This document shows positions 27,070 to 42,814 of a stretch of 43,344 bases of DNA, one piece after another. Position 1 is the stretch's first letter; each line of letters opens with the position of its first letter. Source of the stretch: Acidobacteriota bacterium (GTDB lineage Bacteria > Acidobacteriota > Terriglobia > Acidiferrales > UBA7541); NCBI GenBank assembly GCA_003223215.1, contig QHYH01000126.1, positions 1 through 43,344 on the forward strand, written 5' to 3'. A program made the position numbers and the translations under genes. The notes below the pieces were generated by a model, which saw nothing but the letters and a program-made list of their open reading frames with translations, was not told where the DNA came from and ran no database searches.

Positions 27070-27088
27070 GAGGTTTCAATTGAACCTC
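27070..27088. promoter_or_regulatory. Palindrome centred on TTCAATTGAA
   Basis: GAGG, a single T, TTCAATTGAA (a perfect 10-bp palindrome, 27075-27084) and CCTC form a near-perfect 19-base dyad. It lies about 370 bases upstream of the VirB2 gene. No T tract follows, so a regulator binding site is more likely than a terminator. Confidence 0.4.
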
Positions 27089-27218
27089 GCGCCGATTTCC
27101 ACGTCAACAAGCAAATGGCCAATCGCGGATCCACCAGCATCCGTTGGCGAAGCGTTGGCTTCCTGCTCTCAAACTGTTTTTCCTACTTTCTCTCTCCCCG
27201 ATGCTCCCTAGCAAGTGA

Positions 27219-27408
27219 GGAGAGTTCTCGCCGGTTTTTTCCTGGGAGCTTGGCTGCTTCTTAAAGCCCCAGGGGGCAACGCGCCGGGTACTAAGGTAGA
27301 AACCAACTGCCTGGAGCTCTGGCTCCGCGTACTGGAAGCAGGGAAACGGTTTTGCCTGGTCACGTGTGATGCCTCTTGGGAGCCAAACCGCTCGAGCGAG
27401 AACTCTCC
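27219..27408. repeat. Two distant 13-bp inverted copies, candidate paired operators
   Basis: GGAGAGTTCTCGC (27219-27231) and its exact reverse complement GCGAGAACTCTCC (27396-27408) are separated by 164 bases. Each copy contains the dyad GAGA-NN-TCTC and so could itself bind a dimer. The second copy ends 46 bases before the VirB2 start codon. Paired operators with looping are a plausible reading. Confidence 0.5.
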
Positions 27409-27454
27409 GAACTTGATCGGCGAGCGAAGACGTCAACAGGGAGGTGGCCGGAAA

Positions 27455-27772
27455 ATGAGACACCATTGGTGGAAGGTCCTTAGGTTTAAGAAAGCATTCA
27501 GGAAACTGGTCGTCGCCGTGACGGGACTCGTTCTCGCGGCTCCAGCTTTCGCGCAAGTGTCGGGGAGCTCTCCGTGGGAAAACGCCGTTAACGTGCTGCA
27601 AGCCGCGTTTACCAGCACCATCGCCCGCGGCCTTTCCTTGGTGGCCATCGTGGTATCCGGCCTCACGTTCGCCTTCGGAGAAGGCGGCTCGAAGCGAGTG
27701 CTCGCAGGCGTGCTTTTCGGCGTCGGCATGGCCATCGCCGCTGTCAACTTCCTCGCCTGGCTCTTTCCGTGA
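27455..27772 (+). CDS. trbC: VirB2/TrbC-type conjugative pilin
   Basis: A 105-residue pilin precursor. It has a long basic N-terminal signal with cleavage expected after LVLAAPAFA, then two hydrophobic segments (IARGLSLVAIVVSGLTFAFG and VLAGVLFGVGMAIAAVNFLA) with a short polar loop EGGSKR, the usual VirB2/TrbC layout. GGGAGGTGG lies before the ATG at 27455. It opens the type IV secretion operon. After processing it would polymerise as the pilus subunit. Confidence 0.88.
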   Translation: MRHHWWKVLRFKKAFRKLVVAVTGLVLAAPAFAQVSGSSPWENAVNVLQAAFTSTIARGLSLVAIVVSGLTFAFGEGGSKRVLAGVLFGVGMAIAAVNFLAWLFP

Positions 27773-27810
27773 GTGGGGAGCGGTTTTAGGTACTCTCGCG
27801 GGAGCGGCGC

Positions 27811-28110
27811 ATGGCAAGCGGCGAGCGTGTGAATCCGGTCTATAGATCGATCTCGAGGCCTCTGACGATTCTCGGCGCGGAAAGAAAGCTCTTTTTCTTC
27901 GCCATGTGCGTCGGCGCGGGAACCTTCAACCTGCTCGGCAGTCTGCTGGGAGGGGTCCTTATGTTTGTGTTGCTCTACTCGGTCGCGCGCTGGGCCACCA
28001 AAACAGACCCGCAGATCCTTCGTTTCCTGCTTTCATCGCCCAGGCTGCGCGCCCAATACGACCCGTCAAAGTTCAGCCCGATTGCGGTCCGCAGGATCCC
28101 CCATGCTTAA
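27811..28110 (+). CDS. trbD: VirB3/TrbD-type membrane protein
   Basis: A 99-residue inner-membrane protein with the family start NPVYRSISRPLTILGAERKL and one long hydrophobic hairpin (FFAMCVGAGTFNLLGSLLGG, then VLMFVLLYSVARW). The C-terminus DPQILRFLLSSPRLRAQYDP is typical of TrbD. VirB3 is needed with VirB4 for pilus assembly. It is 38 bases after the pilin gene and overlaps the VirB4 start by eight bases (28103-28110), implying translational coupling. Confidence 0.88.
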   Translation: MASGERVNPVYRSISRPLTILGAERKLFFFAMCVGAGTFNLLGSLLGGVLMFVLLYSVARWATKTDPQILRFLLSSPRLRAQYDPSKFSPIAVRRIPHA

Positions 28111-30550
28111 GCTGAAACGGATTTTCAAGAACTACGAAGAGACAGGTTCTCTCAACGAACAGGTGAACCTCTACGGCTTCGTCGACTCCCACATGTTCCT
28201 CACCAAGACGGGAGACCTCGGCGTTGTGGTGGAAGTGCGGGGTGTCGATTACGAATGCCTGGACCAAACCACGCTCGCAAGCCTCACGAAGCGGCTTGAA
28301 TCGGCGTTCAAGCTGTTTGACGACAACTACCGCATCTATCAGTACCTCTTCAAACGGAATAACAAAACGATCCCGTACCGGCTCTATGGCAAGCCTGTTG
28401 TGGACACGGCCATCAAGAATCGCCTCGCGTATTTTGCGGGCAAAGCGGACAGGCTTTTCTCGCTGTCGATCTATTACGTCATTCTCTTCGAAGGCTTCCG
28501 CTACACGCGCACGCTCGCGGCTACGCTCGTCGCCATTCCGAAGCAGCCTGCCAAAGCGCTTTCGGAATTGAGAGCCCATTTCTCAGCAAGAAACCAGATC
28601 CTGCTCCTCGAGGGCGAACTCAGCCGGGCGCAGGCGAACCTCCTGCAAAAGGTCGAAAGCTTCCTCCTCCAGGTCAGCGATTTTCTGCCGGCCCGCTTGC
28701 TCGGCAAGCAAGAAGCCTTCCGCATCCTCAAACAGACCCTGAACTTCGCCCCCGCAAAGATCGAATTTTCAAAACTCCTTCACGACACGTTTTTGGACTT
28801 TTCCCTCTCTGAGTCCCATTTGGAATGCCACAGAGGGCACCTCCGCGTGGACGATTATTACGTCAAGGTTCTGACGCTCAAGGAACCCTCCGCCGAGAGC
28901 TTTCCGCTCATCTTCCGACGCCTGCTCGAAGTCGAGGCCAACTACCACGTGGTAACGGAATGGAAGAGGGAAGATTCGGGCAGAGCCAGGCGAATCATTC
29001 AGGCCAAGCGCAGGCATTTTCACAACACCAAGCGATCTTTCCTGGGCCAGGTGAACCTGAACGATCAGCCGGCGCAAGATGTTCTATGGGACGACTCGAA
29101 AGAGTCCCGGGTCCGCGAGCTCGGAGAGAGCATCAAGGAGATCGAGTTAAAAGGGAATTACTTTGGCCAGTTTTCCCTTAGCGTCGTCATTTACGATCTC
29201 GACCTCGGGAAAGTGGACCGCGCGTCGGCGGAGTTCTACAAGGTCTTTAGCGTCCACGACGCGCAGCTCTATGAAGAGAAATACAACCTTCTGAACGCAT
29301 TTCTTGCGACCATTCCCGGCAATTACGCCTGGAATCTCCGCTCCCTCTATCTCCTGAACTCGAACTACGCGGACTATTCCTTTCTCTTTACCCTCGACTG
29401 CGGCGAGCCGCAAAACGGCCATCTCGAGAAGGAGTATCTCGCGGTCCTGGAAACGAACCACCACACGCCTTACTTTTTGAACCTCCATCACCGCGACGTC
29501 GCGCACACCATGGTTCTCGGCCGCACGGGCGCCGGGAAATCGTTTCTGCTGAATTTTCTCGTCAGCAACCTCCAGAAGTACGATCCCTGGACGTTTATCT
29601 TCGATCTGGGCGGAAGCTTCGAGAGTCTGACCGAACTGTTTGGCGGGAGTTATATAAAGGTTGGAATCCATTCGCCGGACTTCAAAATCAATCCCTTCTC
29701 GCTACCGCCCACAAAGCAAAACCTCGATTTCTTGGCCCTTTTCCTAAAGGTTCTGCTGCAAGGCCAAGCCCCGCCCGAACTGAATCCTTCTGAGGAGCGC
29801 GACCTCTACCAGCAGATCGAAAACCTTTACTCCGTTGATCCGGCGCTCCGAACTCTGGGAGTGCTCGCCAATACCCTCCCTCATGGCCTGTCGGACCGGC
29901 TCGCGAAGTGGATCGAAGGAGGCCAGTTCGGCTTCGTGTTCGACAACTCGGAAGACACGATTTCGTTTTCAAGATTCCAGTGCTTCGACTTCGAGCGCTT
30001 GCGCCAGTATCCCGAGCTTCTCGAACCGCTGCTTTTCTACATCCTGCATCGCGCCAACGCGGTCATCGCCAACCGCCAGGTCAGCACGACGTTCAAGGCT
30101 TTCTTCATCGACGAGGCCTGGGTCTTCCTGAAGAATCCGAGCATTCAGAGATACGTTGTGGAGGCGCTCAAGACCTGGCGAAAAGCAAACGCCGCCATGA
30201 TTCTGTCCACGCAGTCGCTCGACGAACTGCGCCGTTCGGACGTTCTCGACGTAATCATCGAAAGCTGCCCGACGAAGCTCTTCCTGGCCAACCCCGACAT
30301 GGACCGGGATCTCTACGCGCGCCAGTTTCATCTGAACGAAACCGAAATCGACCTGATCCGGGCGCTCGTTCCCAAGCGACAATTTCTTCTCAAAACGCCC
30401 GAGCACGCCAAAGTCGCAAATCTCACCGTGGACAGGAAGAGCTACTGGCTCTACACAAACGATCCGTTCGACAACCGCAAGCGCCGGGAAGCCTTCGACA
30501 CCTATGGATTCGAGAAGGGACTCGACGTCCTGGCAGGGATGGCGCCATGA
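28103..30550 (+). CDS. trbE: VirB4/TrbE conjugation ATPase
   Basis: An 815-residue ATPase. The N-terminal CagE/TrbE/VirB domain occupies about residues 1-420. The motor domain has Walker A GRTGAGKS (473-480), Walker B FFIDEAW with Asp670-Glu671, and the downstream STQSLDEL motif. It energises pilus biogenesis and substrate transfer at the inner membrane. The start at 28103 overlaps the VirB3 gene and is followed by LKLKRIFKNYEETGSLNE, the usual TrbE beginning. Its TGA overlaps the next ATG by four bases. Confidence 0.93.
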   Translation: MLKLKRIFKNYEETGSLNEQVNLYGFVDSHMFLTKTGDLGVVVEVRGVDYECLDQTTLASLTKRLESAFKLFDDNYRIYQYLFKRNNKTIPYRLYGKPVVDTAIKNRLAYFAGKADRLFSLSIYYVILFEGFRYTRTLAATLVAIPKQPAKALSELRAHFSARNQILLLEGELSRAQANLLQKVESFLLQVSDFLPARLLGKQEAFRILKQTLNFAPAKIEFSKLLHDTFLDFSLSESHLECHRGHLRVDDYYVKVLTLKEPSAESFPLIFRRLLEVEANYHVVTEWKREDSGRARRIIQAKRRHFHNTKRSFLGQVNLNDQPAQDVLWDDSKESRVRELGESIKEIELKGNYFGQFSLSVVIYDLDLGKVDRASAEFYKVFSVHDAQLYEEKYNLLNAFLATIPGNYAWNLRSLYLLNSNYADYSFLFTLDCGEPQNGHLEKEYLAVLETNHHTPYFLNLHHRDVAHTMVLGRTGAGKSFLLNFLVSNLQKYDPWTFIFDLGGSFESLTELFGGSYIKVGIHSPDFKINPFSLPPTKQNLDFLALFLKVLLQGQAPPELNPSEERDLYQQIENLYSVDPALRTLGVLANTLPHGLSDRLAKWIEGGQFGFVFDNSEDTISFSRFQCFDFERLRQYPELLEPLLFYILHRANAVIANRQVSTTFKAFFIDEAWVFLKNPSIQRYVVEALKTWRKANAAMILSTQSLDELRRSDVLDVIIESCPTKLFLANPDMDRDLYARQFHLNETEIDLIRALVPKRQFLLKTPEHAKVANLTVDRKSYWLYTNDPFDNRKRREAFDTYGFEKGLDVLAGMAP

Positions 30551-30825
30551 AAACGCTCCTCATCTCGTTTGTCATTTGGGTTTTGATCGTGCCTGCTTTG
30601 GTGGCTTTGTTCCTCATCTTCACTTTTATCGCGGCGTTTCTCCCCGACCTCTATTTCGCTGCCACCTCGTTCGCGCTCGCCTTCGCTGTCGTCACGATGG
30701 TGTGGGGGCCTTTCTGGTTCGGGCCGTTTTTAGGTTCGAGCGCCCATTTCTTTCCAAGAAATCGGCGACACCCAAATGCAACCCAGGAGAAAAAGCGTGC
30801 ACACTCTTTTCAAGTCCGTTCTTAA
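30547..30825 (+). CDS. Small membrane protein between VirB4 and VirB9
   Basis: A 92-residue protein with two or three hydrophobic segments (LLISFVIWVLIVPALVALFL, YFAATSFALAFAVVTMVWG) and a basic C-terminus. The ATG at 30547 overlaps the VirB4 stop (ATGA), and the end overlaps the VirB9 reading frame start region, so it belongs to the operon. In canonical trb operons a small protein (TrbK) lies near here and acts in entry exclusion, but TrbK is a lipoprotein and this is not. The family is not recognised. Confidence 0.7.
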   Translation: MKTLLISFVIWVLIVPALVALFLIFTFIAAFLPDLYFAATSFALAFAVVTMVWGPFWFGPFLGSSAHFFPRNRRHPNATQEKKRAHSFQVRS

Positions 30826-31621
30826 AGGCAGTCTTGCTGTGTTCAGTTTCACCGTGCTGGCCATGCTGCCTGCACAAGCGGAACCAGGCAGCGGCCGTAC
30901 GGTGAAATACTCGCAGCAGGATATCGTCTCGATCCGCGCCAAAATTCGCTTTTCCACGCTCATTGTCCTGCCGCCGAACGAAGACATTCTGGACTTTGCG
31001 ACCGGCGACAAAGAGTTCTGGATCATCAACGGCGTACACAATCTCTGCTACGTCCATCCCGCAAAGGCGGGAATTCGAAGCGACCTGCATCTGGTTACCT
31101 CTACCGGACGCGTCTACTCCTTTCTCTTAACCGAAGTCAGCAACGACCCTTCGAGGGAACCCGACCTCAAGCTTTTCGTTGAGCCAAAGGAAGAATCGGC
31201 AATTGCGGGCTCGGCGGGCTTTGAAAACTACGTGCGAGCCGGCGAGGCGGAAGCCTACAAGAAGGAGCTGGACGCTCTCCGCAGCGTGACTGACAGCCAA
31301 ATCCACGCGGCCGAGGCAAGCGCGGCCAACGAGGTAGCGAAGTTCAGGGCCGACTACCCTCAGAAGCTGCAGTTTGACTATGAGCTGGACAAGAAGGCCT
31401 GGGACGAGCCTTTTCGTGTGTCGATGATCTACCACGACGAGGCGTTTACCTACATCAAGTGCGGCGCCCGCGAGAAACCCGCCCTCTACGAAAGCAAAGA
31501 CGGAAAGCCCAACCTCCTCAACTTCCAAATGGAAAACGGCGTCTATATCGCCCCCAAGATCATCGATGACGGATATCTCGTCATCGGGAAGAAGAAGGTC
31601 ACCTTTAGGCGGCGCCGCTAA
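30797..31621 (+). CDS. trbG: VirB9/TrbG-type channel protein
   Basis: A 274-residue periplasmic/outer-membrane protein. I chose the GTG at 30797 because AGGAGA lies six bases upstream and it opens a clean signal peptide (cleaved after MLPAQA); an ATG at 30776 is in frame. The N-terminal beta domain contains RAKIRFSTLIVLPPNEDILD and KEFWIINGVHNLCYVHPAK. The C-terminal domain ends NGVYIAPKIIDDGYLVIGKK, typical of VirB9/TrbG/CagX. It forms the outer ring of the core complex with VirB10 (next gene) and normally VirB7, for which no gene is visible. Confidence 0.85.
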   Translation: MHTLFKSVLKGSLAVFSFTVLAMLPAQAEPGSGRTVKYSQQDIVSIRAKIRFSTLIVLPPNEDILDFATGDKEFWIINGVHNLCYVHPAKAGIRSDLHLVTSTGRVYSFLLTEVSNDPSREPDLKLFVEPKEESAIAGSAGFENYVRAGEAEAYKKELDALRSVTDSQIHAAEASAANEVAKFRADYPQKLQFDYELDKKAWDEPFRVSMIYHDEAFTYIKCGAREKPALYESKDGKPNLLNFQMENGVYIAPKIIDDGYLVIGKKKVTFRRRR

Positions 31622-31659
31622 GGAGCCGCGAACAAAGGAAAGAACACGGAGCGGAAAAG

Positions 31660-32961
31660 ATGAAGGAGCCGATCGAAGACAAAGCGCCCAAACCGCCTGG
31701 GCTTCTCCCAAAGCATGTGCAGTCCTGGCTGATCCTGGGGCTGGCCGTGCTGATGATCGTGATCATGTGGCTCACGGGCGGCAAGAAGCATGAGAGCGCC
31801 ACCAAGGCAACGGTTCCTGTGGCCGCCGCGCCGCAATCCGTAGAACTCAACGAGAGCAAGATTGCGGAGCTGCAGAGTCGCATCCAAGAGCTTCAACGCG
31901 AACAACTTGTCGCCCAGAGTGCTCTTGCGCACGAGAGTCGCCTGCTTGGCGGGATGCCTTCGGGCGAGCAGCAGGCCAACGTATCTCCCCATCCGTCAGC
32001 CGAACACACCGAGGACAGGATCAAAGCAGAGCGCAGGACGCGCGAGTACTTGTCGCTGTTTGCCTCCAACCTCGCCTTAAGCTACCGCAAGGCCGCGAAC
32101 CGGACCGAGCCGGGCGAGCCCGAGCCCGCCTTTCCGGTAACCGAAGAACCACGCGCAGCTCCTGCTCTTCCTCCGCAAGACGCAGCCCTGTTGTCGCAAA
32201 TGCTAAAGGATGCTCCGCTTGGCGTTTCGCCGCAATCCGTCCCGGCTGCAGAACTTACCACTAGCACGCCGCCTGAACCCCACAACGCTTCGGCGAGCCC
32301 AGAAACCAGCCGCCCAACCAAGGAGGTCCATAACCCTGCCGCCGCGCCCCGTCATCTCTCCTCCGCGGCGGCAGGGAAAACCTACATTCTCTTTGAAGGG
32401 ACGATTCTCGAGGCTGTACTTCTCACTCGGCTCGACGGGCAGTTTACCGGTCCAGTCGAATGCCTCTTAACCAATGATATGTTTTCACACGACCGCCAGC
32501 ACCTTCTCATGCCGGCAGGCTCGAAAATTCTCGGCGAGACACGCAAGGTGGACGCTTTTGGCCAGACTCGTCTTGCCGTTCTCTTCCACCGCCTCATCAT
32601 GCCGGATGGGTTCTCGCTGAGCCTCGACCAGTTCAAGGGCCTCAATCAGGCGGGTGATGCGGGCCTGCGCGATCAGGTGAACAACCATTACCTGCGGATT
32701 TTCGGAGTCTCGATGGCCATCGGCGCCCTCGGGGCCGTGGCCCAAAGTGGCACGGCGGGCCCGCTTACGGCCTCCGGCACGGACGTCACGCGCCAGGGGT
32801 TCGCGCAAAGCACAGCGCAATCCTCAGCCCAGATCCTCAACAAATTCTTGAACATCCTGCCCACGGTCACAATCCGCGAAGGTCACCGCGTCAAAGTCTA
32901 TCTTTCAGGCGACCTCGCTTTGCCCGATTACAACCACCATCAACTGCCCCGCGACCTCTGA
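31660..32961 (+). CDS. trbI: VirB10/TrbI-type core complex protein
   Basis: A 433-residue protein with a short cytoplasmic tail, one membrane helix at about residues 22-40 (SWLILGLAVLMIVIMWL), a coiled and Pro-rich periplasmic stretch, and the VirB10 beta-barrel from about residue 240 (YILFEGTILEAVLLTRLDGQ, LMPAGSKILGETRKVDAFGQ, TIREGHRVKVYLSGDLALP). VirB10 spans both membranes and senses ATPase state to open the channel. It follows the VirB9 gene by 38 bases and has GGAG before the ATG. Confidence 0.92.
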   Translation: MKEPIEDKAPKPPGLLPKHVQSWLILGLAVLMIVIMWLTGGKKHESATKATVPVAAAPQSVELNESKIAELQSRIQELQREQLVAQSALAHESRLLGGMPSGEQQANVSPHPSAEHTEDRIKAERRTREYLSLFASNLALSYRKAANRTEPGEPEPAFPVTEEPRAAPALPPQDAALLSQMLKDAPLGVSPQSVPAAELTTSTPPEPHNASASPETSRPTKEVHNPAAAPRHLSSAAAGKTYILFEGTILEAVLLTRLDGQFTGPVECLLTNDMFSHDRQHLLMPAGSKILGETRKVDAFGQTRLAVLFHRLIMPDGFSLSLDQFKGLNQAGDAGLRDQVNNHYLRIFGVSMAIGALGAVAQSGTAGPLTASGTDVTRQGFAQSTAQSSAQILNKFLNILPTVTIREGHRVKVYLSGDLALPDYNHHQLPRDL

Positions 32962-33010
32962 AGCTCGGTACCTATAAATCCTAAAGTTCAGAAAAAAGGG
33001 AGAAAAACGC

Positions 33011-33835
33011 ATGAAACAAAAGGCTCTGGCGGTAATGCTGGTGCTCGCACTCTCGGCCGGAACGGCGTCTGCGCAATTCGGCTTCGGCGGAGTCGTCTAT
33101 GACCCCACGAACTATCACAACGCCCTGCTGCGCTACTTCCAGTTGCAGCAGCAGCTCATTCAGCTCAGAAACAGCTACGCCGAGCTCGTCGCGCAATACA
33201 ACTTGGCCATCCGCATGGCCAAGAACATCCCTAACATGCCGGCCCGCTACCGCGCGTTGTTTTCGCAATGGAGAAACACGGGCGCCCGGGACGTTTACGG
33301 GAATACCGGTGCCTGGACGAGCGGCGTCAATTCAGGACAGTTTCCAAGCGTCGCTGCCGGCTACGAGCACGCGACAACACAATTGCTCCCCTACGACCCG
33401 ACGGCACTCGGCAGCATGACTCCCGCAGAACGGGAGCGAGTCAAATCCCAGTATGCCTCGGTCGAACTCGCTGACGGAGCAAACACCACGGCGCTGGCCA
33501 CCATCGGGTCCATCCGCGGGAATGCCCAGACGATCGAGAGCCGGATTTCGAACCTCGAGGAAGACTCCCTTTCCGGTGACCCCAATCTGAACACGGAAGT
33601 CTCCGTGCTCAACAAGATCAATGCAGCCAACGTTTTGACGCTCCGCACCGTGCAAGACTCGAACAAGCTCCTCGCCTCTCTCCTCGAGCAACAAACCATC
33701 CTCTCGAAGCAGCAGCGTGAAGCAACCGCGAATGCCATCAATGCCGAGATTGCGCGGCGTCGAAATCTCGCCGGGAACATGGCCCGGCTCACCAGCACGC
33801 TCACCGACTCCCTTGAGAACTTCCGGATGCCGTAG
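33011..33835 (+). CDS. trbJ: TrbJ/VirB5-like pilus-associated protein
   Basis: A 274-residue exported protein with signal peptide (KALAVMLVLALSAGTASAQ) and the TrbJ-type start of the mature part (GGVVYDPTNYHNALLRYFQ). Long alpha-helical coiled coils follow (QLQQQLIQLRNSYAELVAQ and, near the end, EQQTILSKQQREATANAINA). VirB5/TrbJ proteins sit at the pilus tip and help recipient contact. GGGAG precedes the ATG, and the gene is 49 bases after the VirB10 gene. Confidence 0.82.
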   Translation: MKQKALAVMLVLALSAGTASAQFGFGGVVYDPTNYHNALLRYFQLQQQLIQLRNSYAELVAQYNLAIRMAKNIPNMPARYRALFSQWRNTGARDVYGNTGAWTSGVNSGQFPSVAAGYEHATTQLLPYDPTALGSMTPAERERVKSQYASVELADGANTTALATIGSIRGNAQTIESRISNLEEDSLSGDPNLNTEVSVLNKINAANVLTLRTVQDSNKLLASLLEQQTILSKQQREATANAINAEIARRRNLAGNMARLTSTLTDSLENFRMP

Positions 33836-33869
33836 CAGCTCACCTTGTCGCGTCGAAGGAGCGATCCGC

Positions 33870-34712
33870 ATGGACTACCTCGCGTTCATCTTTCGGGCCA
33901 TCAACAACCTGCTCACCCAGAATCTCGGCTTCTTCGATGCCATGGGACAAAACCTGTTCCGTGCCTTCGCCACGATTCTTGTGGTTTGGCATGGAGTGAA
34001 GTCCGCTCTGTCCTCTGCCAGCGGCAAACCCTTTTTTGAGTTCGATAGCTTTGCCGCGCTTCTTTTGACCGTCAGCTTTGGCTTTGGAATGGCCAACTAC
34101 TACAGCAACCCGATTCCCGGCATAGGAACCGGTTTCCATAACCTGGTCACCGACGAGGCCCAGTTTCTGGCCAACAAGATCAACCAGACCGAGCTCCAGA
34201 CGGTGGAAGAGCGGATCGCCGATTTCGAAGTCCGCATGGATTCGCCCGGCGTGACCGACATCCTCGGAACCATCATCTACGCCGTCATCCTCATCCTGCT
34301 TGCCGCAGCCCAGGCGATCGGCATCGTGGTCATCGCCTATGGATTCATCGCCACGGCGGTGTGTGTGCTTGTGGGGCCGGTTTTTGTGCCCTTTTTCATC
34401 GTTCCTAGGATGGACTGGATTTTCTGGGGCTGGCTTCGCTGCTTTATCCAGTACGCCTTCTACCAGGTGATTGCCGCTGCGGTGGTCTACGTCATCGCCA
34501 ATCTGATTCTCGGAATCATGGACCTTCAGCCAAAGGGCACCATTTCGACCGGCGAGCTCATGGAGGCTTTTCCTGTGCTCTTCATCACCTTCCTTGCCTC
34601 CATCTACGCGCTCCTGAAAATACCGGCCCTCACCCATCACGTCTTCAGCGGCGCCTCGGGCGGTTCTTCTGCCGTGCTTCTCAATCCGAAGCCCGGGAGC
34701 CTCCTGCCATGA
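33870..34712 (+). CDS. trbL: VirB6/TrbL-type polytopic membrane protein
   Basis: A 280-residue inner-membrane protein with about six hydrophobic segments (for example IIYAVILILLAAAQAIGIVV and FIATAVCVLVGPVFVPFFIV). The WxGW-like segment after the PRMDWIFWGWLRCFIQYAFY helix is characteristic of VirB6/TrbL. It forms the inner-membrane part of the channel. GAAGGA precedes the ATG at 33870. The last four bases (ATGA) are shared with the VirB8 gene. Confidence 0.85.
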   Translation: MDYLAFIFRAINNLLTQNLGFFDAMGQNLFRAFATILVVWHGVKSALSSASGKPFFEFDSFAALLLTVSFGFGMANYYSNPIPGIGTGFHNLVTDEAQFLANKINQTELQTVEERIADFEVRMDSPGVTDILGTIIYAVILILLAAAQAIGIVVIAYGFIATAVCVLVGPVFVPFFIVPRMDWIFWGWLRCFIQYAFYQVIAAAVVYVIANLILGIMDLQPKGTISTGELMEAFPVLFITFLASIYALLKIPALTHHVFSGASGGSSAVLLNPKPGSLLP

Positions 34713-35374
34713 CCAGCGAGAGGAGCTTTCATGACGCCAAGCGGCTCTATCTCGAACAGTATGGCGATCCGATGGTGACCAACACCTACCTCAAGATCGC
34801 GCTGACGCTCGTTTGCCTCATCGCCGCGGGTCTTCTGGTTCTCAATTGGAAAACCATCCGCACGTTTGAGAACTTCCGTCCGCTGGTGATACGCATCGAC
34901 GATCTGGGCAGGGCGGAAGCGATCAACTACCACAACCTGGAATACCAACCCCAAGACGCCGAGGCCAAGTATTTTCTCTCCCAGTTTTGCGAGCTGTACT
35001 ACCGCCGCAATCGTTACACCATCCAGAGCGACTTTGCGAGGGCTCTGTATTTCCTTGACGGCAAGCTCGCGAACGGAATTCTCGACGCCTACCGCAAGGA
35101 CGACATCATCAAGAAATTCCTGACCAACACCGGGCTCCCCGAGGTCGACGTGGAGGTGAAGAAAGTGGCACTCGAAGAGATGCAGCCGCCCTACAAGGCC
35201 CGCGTGGACTTCTATATGGTTTATTACTCGCCCGACCACACCGAGCTGAAAAGGGATCTCTATACGGCGAATTTTGTCTTCGTCTTTCGAAAGCACGTGC
35301 CGAATGAACTCATCCCCATCAATCCGTTGGGGCTGACCATCAGCTATTTCCGGGAAGACCAGGCCTTCAAATGA
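34709..35374 (+). CDS. trbF: VirB8/TrbF-type protein
   Basis: A 221-residue protein with a short cytoplasmic segment (DAKRLYLEQYGDPMVTNTYL), one membrane helix at about residues 28-48 (IALTLVCLIAAGLLVLNW) and a periplasmic NTF2-like domain (ISYFREDQAFK at the end, FCELYYRRNRYTIQSDFARA in the middle). The YGDPMVTNTYLK segment is typical of TrbF. VirB8 nucleates assembly of the inner-membrane complex. The start overlaps the VirB6 stop. Confidence 0.88.
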   Translation: MTSERSFHDAKRLYLEQYGDPMVTNTYLKIALTLVCLIAAGLLVLNWKTIRTFENFRPLVIRIDDLGRAEAINYHNLEYQPQDAEAKYFLSQFCELYYRRNRYTIQSDFARALYFLDGKLANGILDAYRKDDIIKKFLTNTGLPEVDVEVKKVALEEMQPPYKARVDFYMVYYSPDHTELKRDLYTANFVFVFRKHVPNELIPINPLGLTISYFREDQAFK

Positions 35375-35414
35375 AGGAAGCCGCGGCACCGGTTGTGGGG
35401 AGGTAAGACCCCTC

Positions 35415-35708
35415 ATGGCATCGAACGCACTGCTCCTGACCATCGCGCTCCTCCTGACGCTGGGATTCTGGCTCTTGGGCGAGCTGAAGTTTCTCATTCC
35501 CTACCGGCACGTCTTGTTTCACCGCTACGGCACAACGCTTCTCCTGTGGTGTGCCATTCTGTTTGTCAACGTCTTTGCCGCCATCTATGCGCTCGAGCGC
35601 AAGTTCTTCCTGAAGGATACCGGCCGGAAGCTCTCCCATGTCGACCGGCAGGTGCTCCAGGGCCAATTCCCCTTGCCCTCCCCATCCGAGACCGAGGAGC
35701 TCCCCTGA
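35415..35708 (+). CDS. Small two-helix membrane protein of the conjugation operon
   Basis: A 97-residue protein with two hydrophobic segments (LLLTIALLLTLGFWLLGEL and LLLWCAILFVNVFAAIYAL) and a cytoplasmic-looking basic/polar tail. GGGAGG lies upstream of the ATG at 35415. Its stop abuts the next start exactly (TGA then ATG), so it is part of the operon. No family is recognised; it could be an entry-exclusion protein or an accessory membrane subunit. Confidence 0.7.
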   Translation: MASNALLLTIALLLTLGFWLLGELKFLIPYRHVLFHRYGTTLLLWCAILFVNVFAAIYALERKFFLKDTGRKLSHVDRQVLQGQFPLPSPSETEELP

Positions 35709-36623
35709 ATGTCCCGCGACCTCTCACCACGGGAACTCGACCATGGTCTGCCGGATCTCGCTGACCTGCGCCCGAGCGATCGCGAGTCCCGGGAGATAGT
35801 GTCGGACAAGCGAAGCGCGACATCCCGCACCGGGGGGCACGCGCCAGAACGCTTCTCTCGGGATCGACTGGCTGAGATTCGGTTTGCGGGCGGGCGCGCT
35901 CTCATGTCGCGACAGGGTTCGAGCTACCACCTGAACGAGTCGGAAATCCGCACGATCATCGAGCTCGGCAAGTTTCGTGTCATTTCAAGGCACGACCTCG
36001 CCCAACATGGCTACGGCGGCAAGCGGGAACGGGCCGACCGCGACCTCGAGAATCTGATTCGCCAACGTCTCGCCCGCCGGGGAGTTTTCGAAGGCCCCCA
36101 AGCGAGCCCGCGTGAACTTTTAACACTCACCAAGACAGGGCGCGAGCTGCTCCAGACGAACGAGCTGGTATCCCAAGGCCAGCCCGTCTACGCAGGCTTC
36201 GCGAGGCCTCGCGAGGCCAATCACGACGCGGACCTCTACCGCCTATACCAGAAAGAAGCGGCTCGCATTGAAGAACAGGGCGGGCGAAATCTCCGTGTGA
36301 TCCTCGAATACGAGCTCAAAGGGAAAATCCGCCGCGACATCGCGCGGCTGGGCGCCGCTGCGCAAAAGGAAATCGCGGCATGGCACGGGCTTCGCGTCGT
36401 GGAAAACAGGATCCCTGTGCCCGATCTCCGCATCGAGTACGAGACCCGAGACGGCGAGTTGGCGCGCGCGGACCTCGAGCTGGTCACCGAGCACTACCGG
36501 GGACGCGTCGCCGCGGACAAAACCCGCGCCGGATTTTCTTTGTACACCCCGCATGGCGAAGCCGGCCGTCTCCGCCGCGTCCTCGGCGCGCGCGGGATGC
36601 GGCCGGACATTCTCTCTCTATGA
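35709..36623 (+). CDS. Winged-helix protein, Replic_Relax-like, candidate relaxosome component
   Basis: A 304-residue soluble protein. Residues about 75-150 form a winged helix (ESEIRTIIELGKFRVISRHD, RADRDLENLIRQRLARRGV, LLTLTKTGRELL). A block NHDADLYRLYQKEAARIEEQ and a C-terminal domain follow, with PDLRIEYETRDGELARADLE and VTEHYRGRVAADKTRAGFSL. This order resembles the replication-relaxation (PF13814-like) proteins found on plasmids and conjugative elements, whose C-terminal fold looks nuclease-like. In this cluster it is the best candidate for an oriT-binding or relaxosome protein. The similarity is by eye only; the first ~70 residues are polar and probably disordered. Confidence 0.6.
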   Translation: MSRDLSPRELDHGLPDLADLRPSDRESREIVSDKRSATSRTGGHAPERFSRDRLAEIRFAGGRALMSRQGSSYHLNESEIRTIIELGKFRVISRHDLAQHGYGGKRERADRDLENLIRQRLARRGVFEGPQASPRELLTLTKTGRELLQTNELVSQGQPVYAGFARPREANHDADLYRLYQKEAARIEEQGGRNLRVILEYELKGKIRRDIARLGAAAQKEIAAWHGLRVVENRIPVPDLRIEYETRDGELARADLELVTEHYRGRVAADKTRAGFSLYTPHGEAGRLRRVLGARGMRPDILSL

Positions 36624-37654
36624 AAATCGCGGAGGAACACATCGTTGCACTCGAAGGCCTCGGCTACACCGAGGAGGAGTCCCGTTTCCTCTACATCGTT
36701 GCGACCCACTCCGGCTACTTCGTGCCTCGGCAGTTCGTCGCGTTTCACAGCGCTAGCCCGGAAAAGGGATCGCAGCCTTTCACGGAGAAACTCAAAAAGC
36801 GCGGCCATGCCACCTGGCGCGAATACCAGAACCTTGGCGGTGTGTATCATCTCTCTTCAAGGACCATCTATCGCCTGACCGACCGCGAAAATCTGAGTCA
36901 TCGTTTCGCCCATTCAACCGAGTTTATCCGCACGCGCCTGCTTCTCCTCGATTTCATCCTCGCGAACCATACGCACGACTACCTCGAAACCGAAGAGGAG
37001 AAAGTCCGTTTTTTCTCGGACAAGCTGGGCATTCCCAAGAAGCTCCTTCCCGCCAGAGCCTCCGAGATCCCGTCGGCGCGTGAGCCAGCGCCTGGCTATT
37101 TCGCCGATAAGTTCCCGTTGTACCTCGACTCCTCCGCCAGTCCTTCCTCTCCCGTCCTCACCTTCTCCTACGTGGACGCGGGGCAGAGAAGACCGGGGCG
37201 TTTTGCGAACCACCTGAACGCTTATGCCCCTCTTTTCCGTCATTTGCGCTCTTTTCGCTTCCTTTATATCGCGCATTCCCCGCTCCGTTTCGAAAGTGCC
37301 CGAGGGCGTTTCTCTTTGCTTGTCCAAACGCCAGCTGAAGAGGTCCTTCGCGAAGAGCTCGAACGCTATTTCGGGCTTCGTGGCGCCTGGGAAGGAAAGC
37401 GGTTCGGAGAGTTGTCGATGGACGACCTCGAATGGCTTGATCAAGCAATCCAGCGCTTTACGGGCCGGGAAATCGACCGGCTCTATGCCGCCTGGGTCCA
37501 TTCCGAGGCGGGGAGAGAGCCATGGCGAAGGCTCTTTAGCGAGGTGTATCCGCCTCGGGCAATCGAATTCCGCACGTGCCTCCTCACGCCGGCTGGCGCG
37601 AAGGATTCGAAAGGGACCCAAGACGGAACCCGACAGCCCGAGCGGCTGTTCTGA
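36620..37654 (+). CDS. Conserved conjugative-element protein of unknown function
   Basis: A 344-residue soluble protein; ATG 36620 overlaps the previous stop (ATGA). The N-terminus looks like a helix-turn-helix (EEHIVALEGLGYTEEESRFL, ATHSGYFVPRQFVAFHSASP). The middle contains RTRLLLLDFILANHTHDYLE, TEEEKVRFFSDKLGIPKKLL and YFADKFPLYLDSS, a pattern I associate with hypothetical proteins next to conjugation genes. HTH within NHTHDY is a single HxH and not a full HUH relaxase site. No catalytic motif can be assigned. Its place between the winged-helix protein and VirD4 suggests a DNA-processing role. Confidence 0.65.
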   Translation: MKIAEEHIVALEGLGYTEEESRFLYIVATHSGYFVPRQFVAFHSASPEKGSQPFTEKLKKRGHATWREYQNLGGVYHLSSRTIYRLTDRENLSHRFAHSTEFIRTRLLLLDFILANHTHDYLETEEEKVRFFSDKLGIPKKLLPARASEIPSAREPAPGYFADKFPLYLDSSASPSSPVLTFSYVDAGQRRPGRFANHLNAYAPLFRHLRSFRFLYIAHSPLRFESARGRFSLLVQTPAEEVLREELERYFGLRGAWEGKRFGELSMDDLEWLDQAIQRFTGREIDRLYAAWVHSEAGREPWRRLFSEVYPPRAIEFRTCLLTPAGAKDSKGTQDGTRQPERLF

Positions 37655-37657
37655 CGA

Positions 37658-39664
37658 ATGGACATCATGATTCGGCAAATCTTTAAGATGCGAACCTTCC
37701 TCGCATGCGTGCTCGCCGCGACGACCGGGATGATGCTCTATTTCTGCTATCCCTTTCCCGACGAGAACTTCTTTCTCGAACTGATCTTCCTCTGGGCGCG
37801 GCCGGTCTTCCAGGGGCTTAAGTTTTTCTACACCCTGTTTCTCTTTACGACTCCCTACATCCTCTATTCCTTTCTTATCTCCGCCACCTACATCTTCGCC
37901 CTGAAGCGCCCTCGGCGAGGAAAGGCGCGGAAGCCTCCGGCCTATCCTCCGGCCACTACCCGCAAAGATCTTTTCGTCGTGCTCGGCGAAGTCCATAATC
38001 CGCGAACGCCCGGCCCGTCAGAAACACCGCGGTGGCTTACCATCCCCGAGCGCGGCCTGTTCACCGGCATCGCCGTCTTCGGCGCCGTGGGCAGCGGAAA
38101 GACGAGCACGTGCCTTTATCCGTATGCCGAGCAGATCCTTTCCTATGAGGCCGCGAACCCCGAAAAACGAATCGGCGGCCTGGTGCTCGAAGTAAAGGGC
38201 GATTTTTGCAGGAAGGTGCGCGCCCTTCTCGCGCGCGTGGGACGCCAGGACGACTACGTCGAAATCAGCCTGGGTTCCAAATACCGCTACAATCCCCTGC
38301 ACAACAGCCTCGACGCTTACGCCTTGGCCTACAGCATCGCCGCCTTAATCAACAACCTGTTTGGCCGGAGTAAGGAGCCCTTCTGGCAACAGGCTTATAC
38401 CAACCTCGTGAAGTTCATCATCCTTTTGCACCAGGTGGCCTACGACTACGTCACGCTCTTCGATGTATATGAATGCACGATTTCTCCCGAGATCCTGGAG
38501 CAGAGAATCGGCGATGCCGAACTGCGCTGCGAAGAGCGCCGCTTCCTGCTCATCCTGCCGGAGAATTTTCTCAAGCATGTCGCGGCCCTGAAGTTGTTCG
38601 GCTTCGAGTACGACGAAGCGCTCGCCATGTACCGGGCGAGAGAAACCCCAGGGCTGCGGGCGTTTGTCGAGACCAACAACGTCGAATACGAGTGTCTCGC
38701 TGAGAGTGTCATCGACCCGATCGGCACCGACCGCTACGAGAAGCTGCAAGCCGTCAAAAGATGGTTTTACAACGACTGGCGCCGCATCGAGCCGAAATTG
38801 CGGACCTCCATCGTCGAAGGCATCTCCGTCTTCCTTTCCCTCTTCGATGACAACCCCGTCGTCAAACGCACCTTCTGCCCGCCGGTGGAATGTTACGACC
38901 CGGTGGAGAACCGAGACTTCCGCTATGGCGTCCCGCTGCCCTCGTTCAGCTGGCTCATTGAGAAGGGGGCGGTATGCGCCCTGAATTTTCCCGCGGGCAT
39001 GAACCCCGGTCTTGCAAGAGCCCTCGGCGTGATGATGAAGCTCGATTTCCAGCGCTCCGTCCTCAGCCGCATTCCGGAGATCGAAGCCCAGCCGGAACGA
39101 TATTTCCGGCAGGTCCTTTTCCTCTGTGATGAATACCAGCACTTCGCCACGGTCGGAGAGAGCGAGCCCACCGGCGACGAGAAGTTCTTCAGCCTGTCCC
39201 GCCAGCCCAAATGCATACCGATCGTCGCCACGCAGAGCTTCAGTTCGCTCAAGTCCACGCTGCCTGGGGAGACCTGGCGAACTCTCGTGCAGACCTTTCG
39301 AACCAAAGTGTTCCTCACGCTCTCGGACGATTTCTCGGCCAAGGCCGCGAGCGGGCTCTGCGGGCGCGAGGAGCGGCTCAGGGCCGGCTACAACTTCTCG
39401 GAAAGCGGCCACGACGCGCATATCAGCCTGCTGACCGGCAAGGCCGTTTCCCCCCGCGCGAATCTCACGGCTTCGAAGACCTACAGCCTTCGCTCCGACG
39501 ATCGCTTTGACATGAAGACGTTCACCGAACTCAAGAATGCCCAGGCCATTGTGCTGGCTTACGACGGCTTCAACCCTCATCCGCCCACGCTTTGTTACCT
39601 CAAGCCCTATTACAACGACCCGAACCTTTCTTACTTCGAACAGCTCGCGAAGGGACAACTCTGA
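37658..39664 (+). CDS. traG: VirD4/TraG-type coupling protein
   Basis: A 668-residue inner-membrane ATPase. Two N-terminal membrane helices occupy about residues 10-90 (FLACVLAATTGMMLYFCYPF; YTLFLFTTPYILYSFLISAT). The motor has Walker A GAVGSGKT (142-149), the LVLEVKGDFCRKV segment, Walker B VLFLCDEYQ with Asp491-Glu492, and the downstream PIVATQSFSSLKSTLPG and FRTKVFLTL motifs of T4CPs. It brings the relaxosome to the channel. It starts three bases after the previous gene, and its stop shares one base with the VirB11 start (TGATG). Confidence 0.92.
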   Translation: MDIMIRQIFKMRTFLACVLAATTGMMLYFCYPFPDENFFLELIFLWARPVFQGLKFFYTLFLFTTPYILYSFLISATYIFALKRPRRGKARKPPAYPPATTRKDLFVVLGEVHNPRTPGPSETPRWLTIPERGLFTGIAVFGAVGSGKTSTCLYPYAEQILSYEAANPEKRIGGLVLEVKGDFCRKVRALLARVGRQDDYVEISLGSKYRYNPLHNSLDAYALAYSIAALINNLFGRSKEPFWQQAYTNLVKFIILLHQVAYDYVTLFDVYECTISPEILEQRIGDAELRCEERRFLLILPENFLKHVAALKLFGFEYDEALAMYRARETPGLRAFVETNNVEYECLAESVIDPIGTDRYEKLQAVKRWFYNDWRRIEPKLRTSIVEGISVFLSLFDDNPVVKRTFCPPVECYDPVENRDFRYGVPLPSFSWLIEKGAVCALNFPAGMNPGLARALGVMMKLDFQRSVLSRIPEIEAQPERYFRQVLFLCDEYQHFATVGESEPTGDEKFFSLSRQPKCIPIVATQSFSSLKSTLPGETWRTLVQTFRTKVFLTLSDDFSAKAASGLCGREERLRAGYNFSESGHDAHISLLTGKAVSPRANLTASKTYSLRSDDRFDMKTFTELKNAQAIVLAYDGFNPHPPTLCYLKPYYNDPNLSYFEQLAKGQL

Positions 39665-40635
39665 TGCATGGCTTTGAAACCATACTCCCGTTTCTCAAAC
39701 CGATTGAGCACCTGATCCTCGATCCGTCGGTCAGCGAAGTGATGGTGAACGGCGCGGATTCCGTGTTCATCGAGAAGGGGGGATACCTCGAACCGGTCAG
39801 CGGCGTTTCGCTCGGCGAAAAAGCGCTTCTGGTCGCGGTGAAAAATATTGCCCGGCGGCTGGGCGGCGACATCTCGGAATCGCACCCGATCCTCGACTCA
39901 CGGCTGCCGGATGGAAGCAGGGTGGCCGCCGTCATTCCGCCTTCGAGCCTGAACGGCGTCACGCTGACGATTCGCAAATTCAACACGCGCCACTTCGAAA
40001 TCGAAGACCTGATCGCCCGCGGAACGCTTGACCAGGCGCTCGCCAACCGGCTCGAAGACTGCGTTCTCTCGCGCAAGAACATTCTGATCAGCGGCGGCAC
40101 CGGCTCCGGGAAAACAACGACGCTCAATATTCTCAGCAAGTTCATACCGGAAGAGGAGCGCATTCTTTTGATCGAGGATACCGCGGAGATTCACCTTGCC
40201 CATGCGAACCTGGTGCGATTCGAAGCGCGACCTCCACAGAACGGACTTCCTCGAGTGGCCATCCGCGACCTGCTGAAAGCGGCCCTCCGTCACCGGCCGG
40301 ACCACATCCTGCTCGGTGAGATTCGCGGCGGGGAGGCCTTCGATCTGCTGCAGCTTCTCAACACCGGCCACTCGGGGACGTTGTCTACGATTCACGCGAA
40401 TTCCGCAAAGCAAGCCCTCTCGAGACTCACGAGCTGCGTGCTCGAAAGCGGCGTCGAGCTGCCCTACCGCGCGATCAAAAGCAATATCGCCGACTCGCTC
40501 CAGGTGGTCGTGCAGATCGAGCGCAGGCCGGGGCGACGGTATGTCTCGGAAGTCCTCGAAATCCGCGGCTACGATCCCGATGCCGATCTCTTCGACTGCT
40601 CGGCAATCTATCAGAAACGGGAGGCACACGCGTGA
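39664..40635 (+). CDS. trbB: VirB11/TrbB-type ATPase
   Basis: A 323-residue hexameric traffic ATPase. Motifs are Walker A GGTGSGKT (144-151), Asp box LLIEDTAEIHL, Walker B DHILLGEIRGGEAFDLL and His box NTGHSGTLSTIHANSA. The N-terminal domain starts LILDPSVSEVMVNG, as in TrbB/CpaF relatives. It works with VirB4 and VirD4 to power pilus dynamics and DNA transfer. Canonical trb operons begin with trbB; here it is near the end, next to the coupling protein, which is unusual. Confidence 0.92.
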   Translation: MHGFETILPFLKPIEHLILDPSVSEVMVNGADSVFIEKGGYLEPVSGVSLGEKALLVAVKNIARRLGGDISESHPILDSRLPDGSRVAAVIPPSSLNGVTLTIRKFNTRHFEIEDLIARGTLDQALANRLEDCVLSRKNILISGGTGSGKTTTLNILSKFIPEEERILLIEDTAEIHLAHANLVRFEARPPQNGLPRVAIRDLLKAALRHRPDHILLGEIRGGEAFDLLQLLNTGHSGTLSTIHANSAKQALSRLTSCVLESGVELPYRAIKSNIADSLQVVVQIERRPGRRYVSEVLEIRGYDPDADLFDCSAIYQKREAHA

Positions 40636-41513
40636 CGCCCTCCGACCAGGAAAACCCAAAAGCCGTTTCTTCAACCGAGTACATCCAAGAGAACTTTCGC
40701 CCGTCGGATCGCGTCGCAATCCTGTTGCGCAATCGGGCCCACACCGTTCAACGCATCGTCATGGCGGCAAGGATCACCGAACCTTCCTTCGCGGAGTGGC
40801 TCCATGACAAGAATGACAAAGAGCGGTACGACATCTATGTCGGAATGAATGCCTTGAAACCCGGCGCGAGGACTCGAACGAAACAGGATATCCATACCGT
40901 CCGTCATCTCTACCTGGATCTCGACGAGGACGGGCCCGCGGCCCTCGCAGGGATTCGAGAATCGAACCTCGTGCCGGCGGCGAACTACACCATCAACACC
41001 TCGCCAGGCAAGTACCAACTCGTCTGGAGGGTCGAGAATGTTTCGCCGGAGCAAGCCGAGGCCCTGCTGCGGGCCATGGCTCGGACGTTCGGAGGCGATC
41101 CTGCGGCGACGGACTCGACTCGCGTGCTGCGTATTCCTGGGTTTAAGAACCGGAAGTACGAGACGGAGTTTCTGGTCGAAGCAGAAAAGCATAGCGACCG
41201 CGTCTATCAGCTCCTGGACTTCCCCCTCGGCACCGAGCCTGGCCAGGGCGAGGTCCGGCCGCGTCGCCCTCGGCCGACGCCGCGCTTGTCGGAACCGCGC
41301 CCGCTGACTCAGTCCGAGCATGACTGGGCCTATGCTAAACGCGCGCTTTCGAGAGGTGACGATCCCGAAGAGATCGTGCGCCGGATTGCGGACTATCGCG
41401 CGGATGACAAGCACGATCCTTTCTACTACGCGCGTTTGACGGTTAGCAAAGCACAAGCGGAATCAAGGGCGAGCGGCGAGAGGGCGCCGAGAGACTTGAA
41501 TCGAGATCCATGA
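40632..41513 (+). CDS. RepB-like primase of a mobile element
   Basis: A 293-residue protein with the RepB/archaeo-eukaryotic primase-like catalytic pattern: HLYLDLDEDG with Asp96 and Asp98, NYTINTSPGKYQLVWRV carrying the His/Lys region, and DSTRVLRIPGFKNRK. The start is GTG at 40632, overlapping the VirB11 stop (GTGA). Such primases prime the transferred strand in the recipient. It is the last gene of the operon; the C-terminal ~70 residues are a polar, Arg-rich tail with a DDPEEIVRRIADYRADDKHD segment. Confidence 0.8.
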   Translation: MTPSDQENPKAVSSTEYIQENFRPSDRVAILLRNRAHTVQRIVMAARITEPSFAEWLHDKNDKERYDIYVGMNALKPGARTRTKQDIHTVRHLYLDLDEDGPAALAGIRESNLVPAANYTINTSPGKYQLVWRVENVSPEQAEALLRAMARTFGGDPAATDSTRVLRIPGFKNRKYETEFLVEAEKHSDRVYQLLDFPLGTEPGQGEVRPRRPRPTPRLSEPRPLTQSEHDWAYAKRALSRGDDPEEIVRRIADYRADDKHDPFYYARLTVSKAQAESRASGERAPRDLNRDP

Positions 41514-41546
41514 GAGGCCATCGAGGCATTCTCGCCTACTCGCCCT

Positions 41547-41687
41547 TCACGCGTACTCGTATTCCCGCTTTTCGGCGTCAACTTCAACGCGCACATGTTT
41601 CTGTCGGTCGGCGATTTTCTCGAACGTCCGAATGTGATCGGCCGCCCGCTTCTCCAATCGTTTTTTATCCCGTGATATCACCGTGAT
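41547..41687 (-). CDS. Possible small hypothetical protein, minus strand
   Basis: From a GTG near 41687 the minus strand reads an approximately 47-residue charged helical protein (DKKRLEKRAADHIRTFEKIA, VRVEVDAEKREYEY). An in-frame upstream extension would run through the TnpB end hairpin. It is convergent with the primase gene, ending 33 bases from its stop. Codon use looks protein-like, but the family is unknown and it may be a coincidental ORF. Confidence 0.25.
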   Translation of the reverse strand: MTVISRDKKRLEKRAADHIRTFEKIADRQKHVRVEVDAEKREYEYA

Positions 41688-41691
41688 CACT

Positions 41692-41712
41692 CCGTCGCCT
41701 TTCAGGCGACGG
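41692..41712 (-). repeat. Right-end hairpin of an IS200/IS605-type element
   Basis: CCGTCGCC (41692-41699), loop TTTCA, GGCGACGG (41705-41712): a perfect 8-bp stem. The TnpB stop codon on the minus strand (TGA, 41702-41704) lies in the loop. Single-strand-transposing elements of this class have subterminal hairpins here, and in TnpB systems the guide RNA scaffold overlaps the tnpB 3' end. The assignment follows from the adjacent TnpB fragment. Confidence 0.65.
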
Positions 41713-41870
41713 CTTCTCGCGGCACGCATGAGACGACATCCTCTACATTATGCCGCGAACGCCCGATCCGGGCGGGTTGCAGTATGACTTGCGCACTGAC
41801 CACGTCGCGAGGCGCCGACAACCCGCATGCCGGACATGCATGCCAACACTCCGCAAGCATGATCGATAAG
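41702..41870 (-). pseudogene. TnpB (IS200/IS605 OrfB) C-terminal fragment
   Basis: The minus strand reads LSIMLAECWHACPACGLSAP, then RDVVSAQVIL and NVEDVVSCVPREAVA. This is the second half of the TnpB zinc ribbon (CPACG), the final RuvC Asp block (RDVVSAQVIL, normally DRDxNAAxNIL) and the C-terminal tail. Upstream coding sequence is not recognisable, so only about 50 residues remain. An encoded nuclease is not possible. The family call is confident; the left border is approximate. Confidence 0.75.
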
Positions 41871-42076
41871 TTGATACGTGGAATGCCTGGGTCATTGCTG
41901 CGGATCGACTCACGGCTTCGGGCCAACAACTCTCTCGCAATAACCACTTTGTGTTACAACAGGCGAATTTCCTTTGCCGGGGTGGCCTAAGCAGAATTCC
42001 TTCATCTAGGATCACAGCCATCCTGAATTTGGGCGATGGTACTTGCCCTGAGAGGGCGTGATTCATCCGACACATT

Positions 42077-42129: not shown

Positions 42130-42185
42130 TGATCTTTCGGAAAGCGTCTTTGCCCCGGAGGCGGGACAGACCGCAGGGAGAATAT

Positions 42186-42778: not shown

Positions 42779-42814
42779 GTTTTTGGCGACGAACGGTAGT
42801 AATTTGTCGCCCCC

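Follow-up and report, generated by a model that had tools for sequence, protein, structure and literature searches.

A type IV secretion operon of Acidobacteriota with a putative MOBC-like relaxosome and, in its relatives, a conserved inverted repeat as candidate origin of transfer

Conjugative type IV secretion systems (T4SSs) of the MPF_T class (MPF, mating-pair formation) are defined by homologues of VirB4, VirD4, VirB3, VirB6, VirB8 and VirB9, according to PMC3158045, which also places integrative and conjugative elements (ICEs) in acidobacteria. Relaxases of the MOBC class, such as TraX of pAD1 and MobC of CloDF13 (PF13814), are described in PMC12857230 as PD-(D/E)XK enzymes, with a winged helix in TraX, and that source reports no covalent relaxase-DNA intermediate for the class. 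CONJscan scores PF13814 proteins as MobC relaxases (PMC5357655), and Acidobacteriota are abundant in soils (PMC7661733). Here, we analyse a T4SS operon found on a 43344-base contig of an Acidobacteriota bacterium (8.8-Mb draft genome, 279 contigs), the whole of which is referred to as the window, together with its relatives across the phylum. To our knowledge, few conjugation systems have been studied in Acidobacteriota.

The operon comprises fifteen genes on the + strand between positions 27455 and 41513, all with intact reading frames, in the order B2-B3-B4-X-B9-B10-B5-B6-B8-Y-wHTH-ORF-D4-B11-primase (Table 1), which agrees with an earlier sequence-only reading of the window. We propose, with a probability of roughly two in three, that it is the conjugation module of a family of Acidobacteriota ICEs that uses a relaxosome without an HUH relaxase and a conserved inverted repeat, hereafter the dyad, as its origin of transfer (oriT). 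An MPF_T-like pore (B2, B3, B4, B9, B10, B5, B6, B8 and B11) and the VirD4 coupling protein would be served by a relaxosome in which wHTH, a divergent MOBC/Replic_Relax-like nuclease, would nick the DNA, ORF, a protein of a winged-helix family, would help recognise the nick site, and a small RHH protein would assist. The oriT would be the dyad that directly follows ORF, and small integrase islands that have no T4SS, with either ORF and the dyad or just the dyad, would rely on mobilisation in trans.

The pore itself is of a familiar kind. Like MPF_T (VirB/trb) plasmids and ICEs, the operon encodes B2, B3, B4, B5, B6, B8, B9, B10, B11 and VirD4, and the defining MPF_T gene set is complete by Pfam matches. 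It differs from them in its order, C-D-E-G-I-J-L-F followed at the far end by the coupling protein and B, in the addition of X, Y, wHTH and ORF, and in that neither VirB1 nor VirB7 was recognised among the operon products. The sequence-only reading had compared the operon with the Ti-type trb order, relative to which the G-I block is displaced as well. In RP4, G-H-I already stands ahead of J-K-L, so that by this order only F (B8) and B (B11) are out of place. The MPF part is an ordinary MPF_T-like set in variant order and not a new MPF type. Because six or seven of the 14 junctions overlap, the operon is also better called tightly packed than 'mostly overlapping': overlaps are clear at B3/B4, B4/X, B6/B8, wHTH/ORF, D4/B11 and B11/primase, X/B9 becomes a seventh only with the longer B9 start, and the remaining gaps measure 0-49 bp given the starts used. 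What sets the family apart, the MPF being already known, is the MOBC-like protein, the ORF family and a conserved dyad common to islands without a T4SS; among open-licence papers, we found no description of the gene order, of ORF or of the dyad.

The same module was recovered through a search with ORF and, separately, through a search with D4. The ORF search gave matches in 36 Acidobacteriota genomes out of 396, among them that of the window. The D4 survey, which samples the same lineage because its alignment was built from D4 genes adjoining ORF, listed 267 relatives, the best 79 of which were kept and analysed. By their titles, 77 of these best 79 loci belong to Acidobacteriota, the other two coming from Verrucomicrobia (a 4.4-kb contig) and Gemmatimonadetes, and D4 is preceded by ORF and wHTH in all 66 loci with at least 3.2 kb of upstream sequence, which bears out the suggestion of a distinct conjugation lineage in this phylum. 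At least three of six MPF genes are found upstream in 52 of the 58 D4-fetched loci with at least 9 kb on that side, so the grouping of the operon genes is not due to chance. On the other side (61 loci with at least 5 kb downstream of D4), B11 is present in 49, a primase in 32 and an integrase within 10 kb in 25; among the loci most closely related to that of the window, many have a tyrosine integrase directly after the primase, and in L153 a tRNA comes after that. Comparison across Acidobacteriota, as the sequence-only reading had recommended, showed the gene order to be common to relatives phylum-wide. A search of plasmids with D4 matched 12 distant records.

The relatives are mobile elements, probably ICEs, widespread in Acidobacteriota. 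In genome G139 the element measures 40.3 kb and is bounded by the end of a tRNA-Phe gene and a 17-bp copy of that end. It contains a serine recombinase, the T4SS, wHTH, ORF, RHH, D4, B11 and cargo, so that an integrase, a T4SS and a putative relaxase lie between att sites, as in an ICE. A tyrosine integrase adjoins tRNA-Pro in G329 and tRNA-Val in G094. A much smaller island of about 7.1 kb in G325 extends from tRNA-Lys to a 24-bp repeat of the tRNA end, and its genes are a serine recombinase, ORF, wHTH and two more, with no T4SS. With its serine integrase beside a Replic_Relax-like gene, this island resembles class 8 of the streptococcal integrative and mobilizable elements, which pair a serine integrase with Rel_PF13814/MobC (PMC5357655). 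The islands described here differ from them in the added ORF family and dyad, and whereas class 8 encodes VirD4 according to the same source, most MPF-free islands found here do not.

This became apparent in the survey of 73 ORF copies: 22 lie with an MPF set, 34 are MPF-free but have an integrase no more than 7 kb away, and 17 have neither, some of these last on short stretches (integrases were called by profiles from local seeds). We detected wHTH beside ORF in 19 of 22, 16 of 34 and 7 of 17 of these groups, respectively, and D4 in 2 of the 34 integrase-linked copies. ORF is the most constant marker of these elements, and in the minimal case, L109, a tyrosine integrase, ORF and the dyad are all that is present.

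The dyad is an inverted repeat with the core GAGCGACC...GGTCGCTC, located between ORF and the RHH/D4 genes of the relatives. It follows ORF in 99 of the 140 copies for which 450 bp or more of downstream sequence was available. By survey, it was found in 18/21 copies with an MPF set, 19/32 with an integrase only and 5/16 with neither when starting from ORF, and in 43/54, 6/6 and 8/11, respectively, when starting from D4; the two surveys share some genomes, and the strict criterion misses some dyads, such as that of L171. An earlier, unmerged count gave dyads in 97 of 141 loci and 110 dyads in 2.87 Mb, with 0 in one base-shuffled set. Among 84 distinct arm pairs, positions -5, -3, -2 and 0 pair in 80-84 of 84 cases within a locus, as opposed to 51-60% between loci, and the two arms therefore change together. 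In L153, L187 and L051, Rfam matched tRNAs elsewhere in the locus but no family at the dyad.

The exact dyad pattern occurs at 11 places in eight genomes. In the four complete f2 genomes (G094, G329, G061 and G139) all six exact dyads stand directly after the ORF of these elements; none is exact in G337 or G325. In the window's own genome all four exact dyads lie near an integrase: on contig C103 with ORF, an RHH-like gene and a tyrosine integrase, on C168 with an RHH gene and a serine integrase but neither ORF nor wHTH, on C85 with a tyrosine integrase 0.8 kb away, and on C37 (position 5244) with a serine integrase about 1 kb away. Variant dyads follow ORF on C37 and C206. The C168 locus (L239, 6134-8612), which consists of the serine recombinase, the RHH gene and the dyad, resembles an island that retains the cis site alone, and the C85 locus (L238, 12393-15626) shows three consecutive tyrosine-recombinase genes near its dyad, like triplets on other contigs of this genome.

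In the relatives, then, a short inverted-repeat cis site beside putative relaxosome genes is common to conjugative and mobilizable elements; the window lacks it. Such a distribution is as expected of an oriT used both in cis and by hitchhikers, and would provide a MOBC-like system with a defined candidate oriT and make the ORF-dyad pair a sequence tag for mobilizable islands in Acidobacteriota. The integrase and short cis site at C85 and C168 recall helper-dependent small mobilizable islands; the cis site, the helper and the phylum differ, and the islands here are putatively mobilizable.

The wHTH gene probably encodes a divergent member or a sister of the MOBC (Replic_Relax) relaxases, to judge from its motifs and predicted fold, and would be the nicking enzyme. 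In an alignment of 44 rows, from which five too-short rows were excluded for counting, H172, D173, P238 and D239 are invariant in all 39 full-length members, while E257 and Y263 are conserved in 38 and D255 in 34. The predicted structure (pLDDT 81.9) comprises a winged helix followed by helix, strand, helices, strand, strand, helix and strand, with P-D immediately before the second strand and D-x-E within the third. PD-(D/E)XK enzymes show the same order of fold elements as this second domain. Residues 43-160 of the model matched MarR-type chains with Z up to 11.6, as expected for the winged helix. The full-length model matched phage proteins including phage G gp146 (E 3.8e-6, TM about 0.5), and gp146 matched a Replic_Relax profile at 97% across both domains. 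This profile was made from seven proteins retrieved with PF13814, six of them above its cut-off; each of the seven also has a match to the phage family 'replication initiation by nicking'. The best of 24 wHTH members scored 24.6 bits with PF13814, the cut-off being 25.3.

In its winged helix followed by a predicted PD-(D/E)XK-type domain, its P-D and acidic-x-acidic motif and the proximity of its gene to VirD4, wHTH thus appears similar to the MOBC proteins described in PMC12857230. It differs from them in scoring under or far under the Pfam cut-off, in being paired with the ORF family, in its MPF_T-like machine and in its Acidobacteriota hosts. It is best called MOBC-like, not a proven MOBC member. 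The sequence-only reading had reported that no relaxase was visible; the operon indeed has no match to the HUH families tested, while wHTH probably supplies the relaxase that was taken to be missing.

A number of results weigh against the proposed relaxosome and oriT. None of the 24 wHTH members reaches the PF13814 cut-off and only two match at all, one of them with E 0.15; the window wHTH matches no family. In profile comparison with Replic_Relax the winged helix alone aligns (probability 63%), cropped second halves gave no alignment between the two, and nothing aligns past the winged helix between wHTH (A1) and gp146. Sequence and fold searches of the PDB with wHTH returned winged helices only and were thus a test of that domain alone. 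In 41 of the 140 copies, including 14 of the 75 with an MPF set, and in the window, a dyad is lacking or went undetected, one exact dyad of G108 is located away from these elements, and a backwards control pattern occurred twice in the eight genomes. Within about 120 kb we found no far att repeat for G329 or G094, and none was found for C37. Two HUH matches on one G108 contig and the patchy detection of wHTH in MPF-free islands, both discussed below, belong here as well. Further comparisons were without result: wHTH matched neither ORF nor, for the window copy, any of 72,556 plasmid records, and a Replic_Relax protein found no match among phages.

The ORF model (pLDDT 87.7) shows a winged helix and a second domain. 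Against Pfam and PHROGs, ORF gave no match at a meaningful score, against the PDB nothing beyond the winged helix (in one run mainly residues 1-99), and against Replic_Relax none; FokI and MspJI appeared far down among the PDB matches with probabilities of 0.12 and 0.05 and were not taken as its fold. In the window, X, Y, wHTH and ORF all lack a Pfam match, and wHTH and ORF an NCBIfam match as well. ORF thus represents a new family of proteins, linked to wHTH, and is probably a relaxosome or oriT-recognition protein.

The assignment of roles could also be reversed, with ORF as the catalytic relaxase of a new class and wHTH as an accessory or regulator. No pair is more constant than ORF and the dyad, which in L109 stand alone with an integrase, ORF has the invariant residues Y84, R95 and D111, and 18 of the 34 integrase-linked MPF-free copies have no detected wHTH, several of them with a dyad, so wHTH may not be needed in such islands. 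It is wHTH, however, that shows a recognisable nuclease motif, while no nuclease motif or family was recognised in ORF, and the islands could borrow wHTH in trans or carry divergent wHTH genes that were overlooked. We therefore consider this reversal unlikely. A broader version of the proposal can be formulated, in which ORF founds a new class of relaxases or oriT-recognition proteins, ORF and the dyad form the minimal mobilisation unit phylum-wide, one MPF_T-like machine with a non-HUH relaxosome of two proteins, wHTH and ORF, serves many small islands whose integrase is accompanied by no more than ORF and the dyad, or by the dyad, and the window T4SS, itself without a dyad, is the helper for those in its genome; we put it forward tentatively, as doubtful though somewhat less so than the reversal.

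Another reading is that a canonical HUH relaxase is encoded at a distant site of the genome and acts on these elements, with wHTH and ORF as regulators. To look for such relaxases, we searched 11 whole genomes with the profiles PF03432, PF08751 and PF03389. Neither the operon nor the rest of its contig (C242) gave a match, nor did the core of the relatives examined. TrwC-type relaxases were found distant from the T4SS in 7 of the 11 genomes, and HUH matches lay on different contigs or no closer than 0.4 Mb, except in G108, where PF03432 and PF03389 matches share a 71-kb contig with the wHTH gene, about 21 and 25 kb beyond it. Genomes G139, G382 and G325, on the other hand, have no match genome-wide to these three families (MOBH, MOBV and MOBT were not searched genome-wide), and G139 and G382 nevertheless carry such T4SSs. 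Local MOBF, MOBP and MOBQ seeds compared by phmmer with the 79 D4 loci gave no match either. On these searches for MOBF, MOBP and MOBQ types, we regard a borrowed HUH relaxase as highly improbable. Matches to a MOBQ seed in a first survey, in an ArdC-type gene of L050 and a fragment of L123, were read as shared non-relaxase sequence.

The window copy departs from most relatives in having no dyad. Its ORF stop (37654) is followed almost at once by the D4 start (37658), and in its nearest relatives L149, L150 and L151 ORF and D4 likewise abut or overlap, leaving no room for a dyad or an RHH gene. A dyad centred on CGACC with 9-bp arms was not found in 27166-41685, and 11 further MPF-bearing copies were scored dyad-free. 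Lacking the dyad, the RHH gene and any integrase on its contig, the window copy is probably derived: it is probably not self-transmissible as it stands, or acts in trans, or has a changed or moved oriT, or is decaying. That the T4SS is a protein exporter or a dead remnant without DNA transfer, as these absences, the right side cut by a repeat end and the published rule that files VirB4 clusters as protein exporters when no relaxase is recognised with them (PMC3158045) might suggest, is very hard to credit: all fifteen frames are intact, a second genome holds an intact and nearly identical copy, and the relatives are elements with integrases, located at tRNA genes. Under that same rule the family would be misfiled as a protein exporter unless its relaxase is recognised.

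The operon block is a discrete unit. Compared with the closest relative found (L149, contig C108 of G396), the window is 93.8% identical by blastn across the unit, D4 being 97% identical, and the flanks on both sides are unrelated. On the right, the unit is cut by a repeat (176 bp at 41683) whose same edge adjoins the T4SS block in G396 too, but there on the left. As this repeat is also multi-copy in relatives, we read it as a probable insertion-sequence end and not as the end of the element itself; sequence once located 3' of the primase may therefore have been cut off. The repeat has a terminal hairpin and many copies in G396-G398, with at least 13 places in G398. The sequence-only reading had suggested inspecting the flanks for an integrase and att sites. 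None was found on the window contig, which ends with the window, so that the flank can be examined only in relatives, and it is there, in G139 and G325, that integrases and att ends were found. Rfam gave no match at 24000-43344.

Table 1 Features of the T4SS operon and its boundaries in the window
Feature	Position	Strand	Basis or remark
Conserved unit (operon and short ends)	27166..41685	+	Sole stretch common to the closest relative G396:C108
VirB2/TrbC pilin	27455..27772	+	PF04956 E 1.3e-15
VirB3/TrbD	27811..28110	+	PF05101 E 7e-10
VirB4/TrbE ATPase	28103..30550	+	TIGR00929 406 bits (under cut-off); PF03135
X, small hydrophobic protein	30547..30825	+	Matches no family
VirB9/TrbG	30776..31621	+	PF03524 E 7e-34; start 30776 or 30839
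VirB10/TrbI	31660..32961	+	PF03743 E 9e-45
VirB5/TrbJ-like	33011..33835	+	Position; conserved homologues at the same place; weak DUF4141 match
VirB6/TrbL	33870..34712	+	PF04610 E 6e-14
VirB8/TrbF	34709..35374	+	PF04335 E 5e-17
Y, small membrane protein	35415..35708	+	No family; position kept in relatives
wHTH, candidate MOBC/Replic_Relax-like relaxase	35709..36623	+	Winged helix and predicted PD-(D/E)XK-like domain
ORF, new protein family	36620..37654	+	Winged helix and second domain; probable relaxosome or oriT-recognition protein
ORF/D4 junction	37655..37657	+	oriT-like dyad and RHH gene here in most relatives, absent in the window copy
VirD4/TraG coupling protein	37658..39664	+	PF12696, PF10412
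VirB11/TrbB ATPase	39664..40635	+	PF00437 E 1.5e-54
RepB-type primase	40632..41513	+	PF16793 E 8.5e-30; tyrosine integrase often next in close relatives
Multi-copy repeat end, probably insertion sequence	41683..41858	.	Cuts the unit on the right

Upstream of the operon, the window contains a phosphodiesterase/sulfatase-type gene (21338-22567, + strand) and a sulfatase fused to TPR repeats (22659-24641, - strand).

Among the relatives, X is also present in the nearest ones, L149 and L150, and in L153 and L154. Five class-mates share a common core in one order, from a DNA-methylase gene through B11, and their flanks are mostly unrelated, the exceptions being a small gene common to G329 and G094, and a LysR-type gene with a second gene in G337 and G061 and, weakly, in others. 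Only the f2 genomes carry a receiver-like protein, a C5 methylase and two SSB-like genes between B8 and Y (L039, 14480-17834; at the same place in four class-mates). In the f49 genomes and on one G050 contig, wHTH and Y are relocated. In L038 (4985-7126) and L192 (from 11.6 kb), the gene next to B11 or the primase on the downstream side is of the topoisomerase III type, as if part of the transfer operon. On contig C3 of G108 (L049 and L050), a tyrosine-recombinase gene and its neighbours are duplicated 29.4 kb apart (625-2837 and 30022-32234), flanking the T4SS. Finally, L162 contains two elements of the family arranged head to head on one contig (9000-21995).

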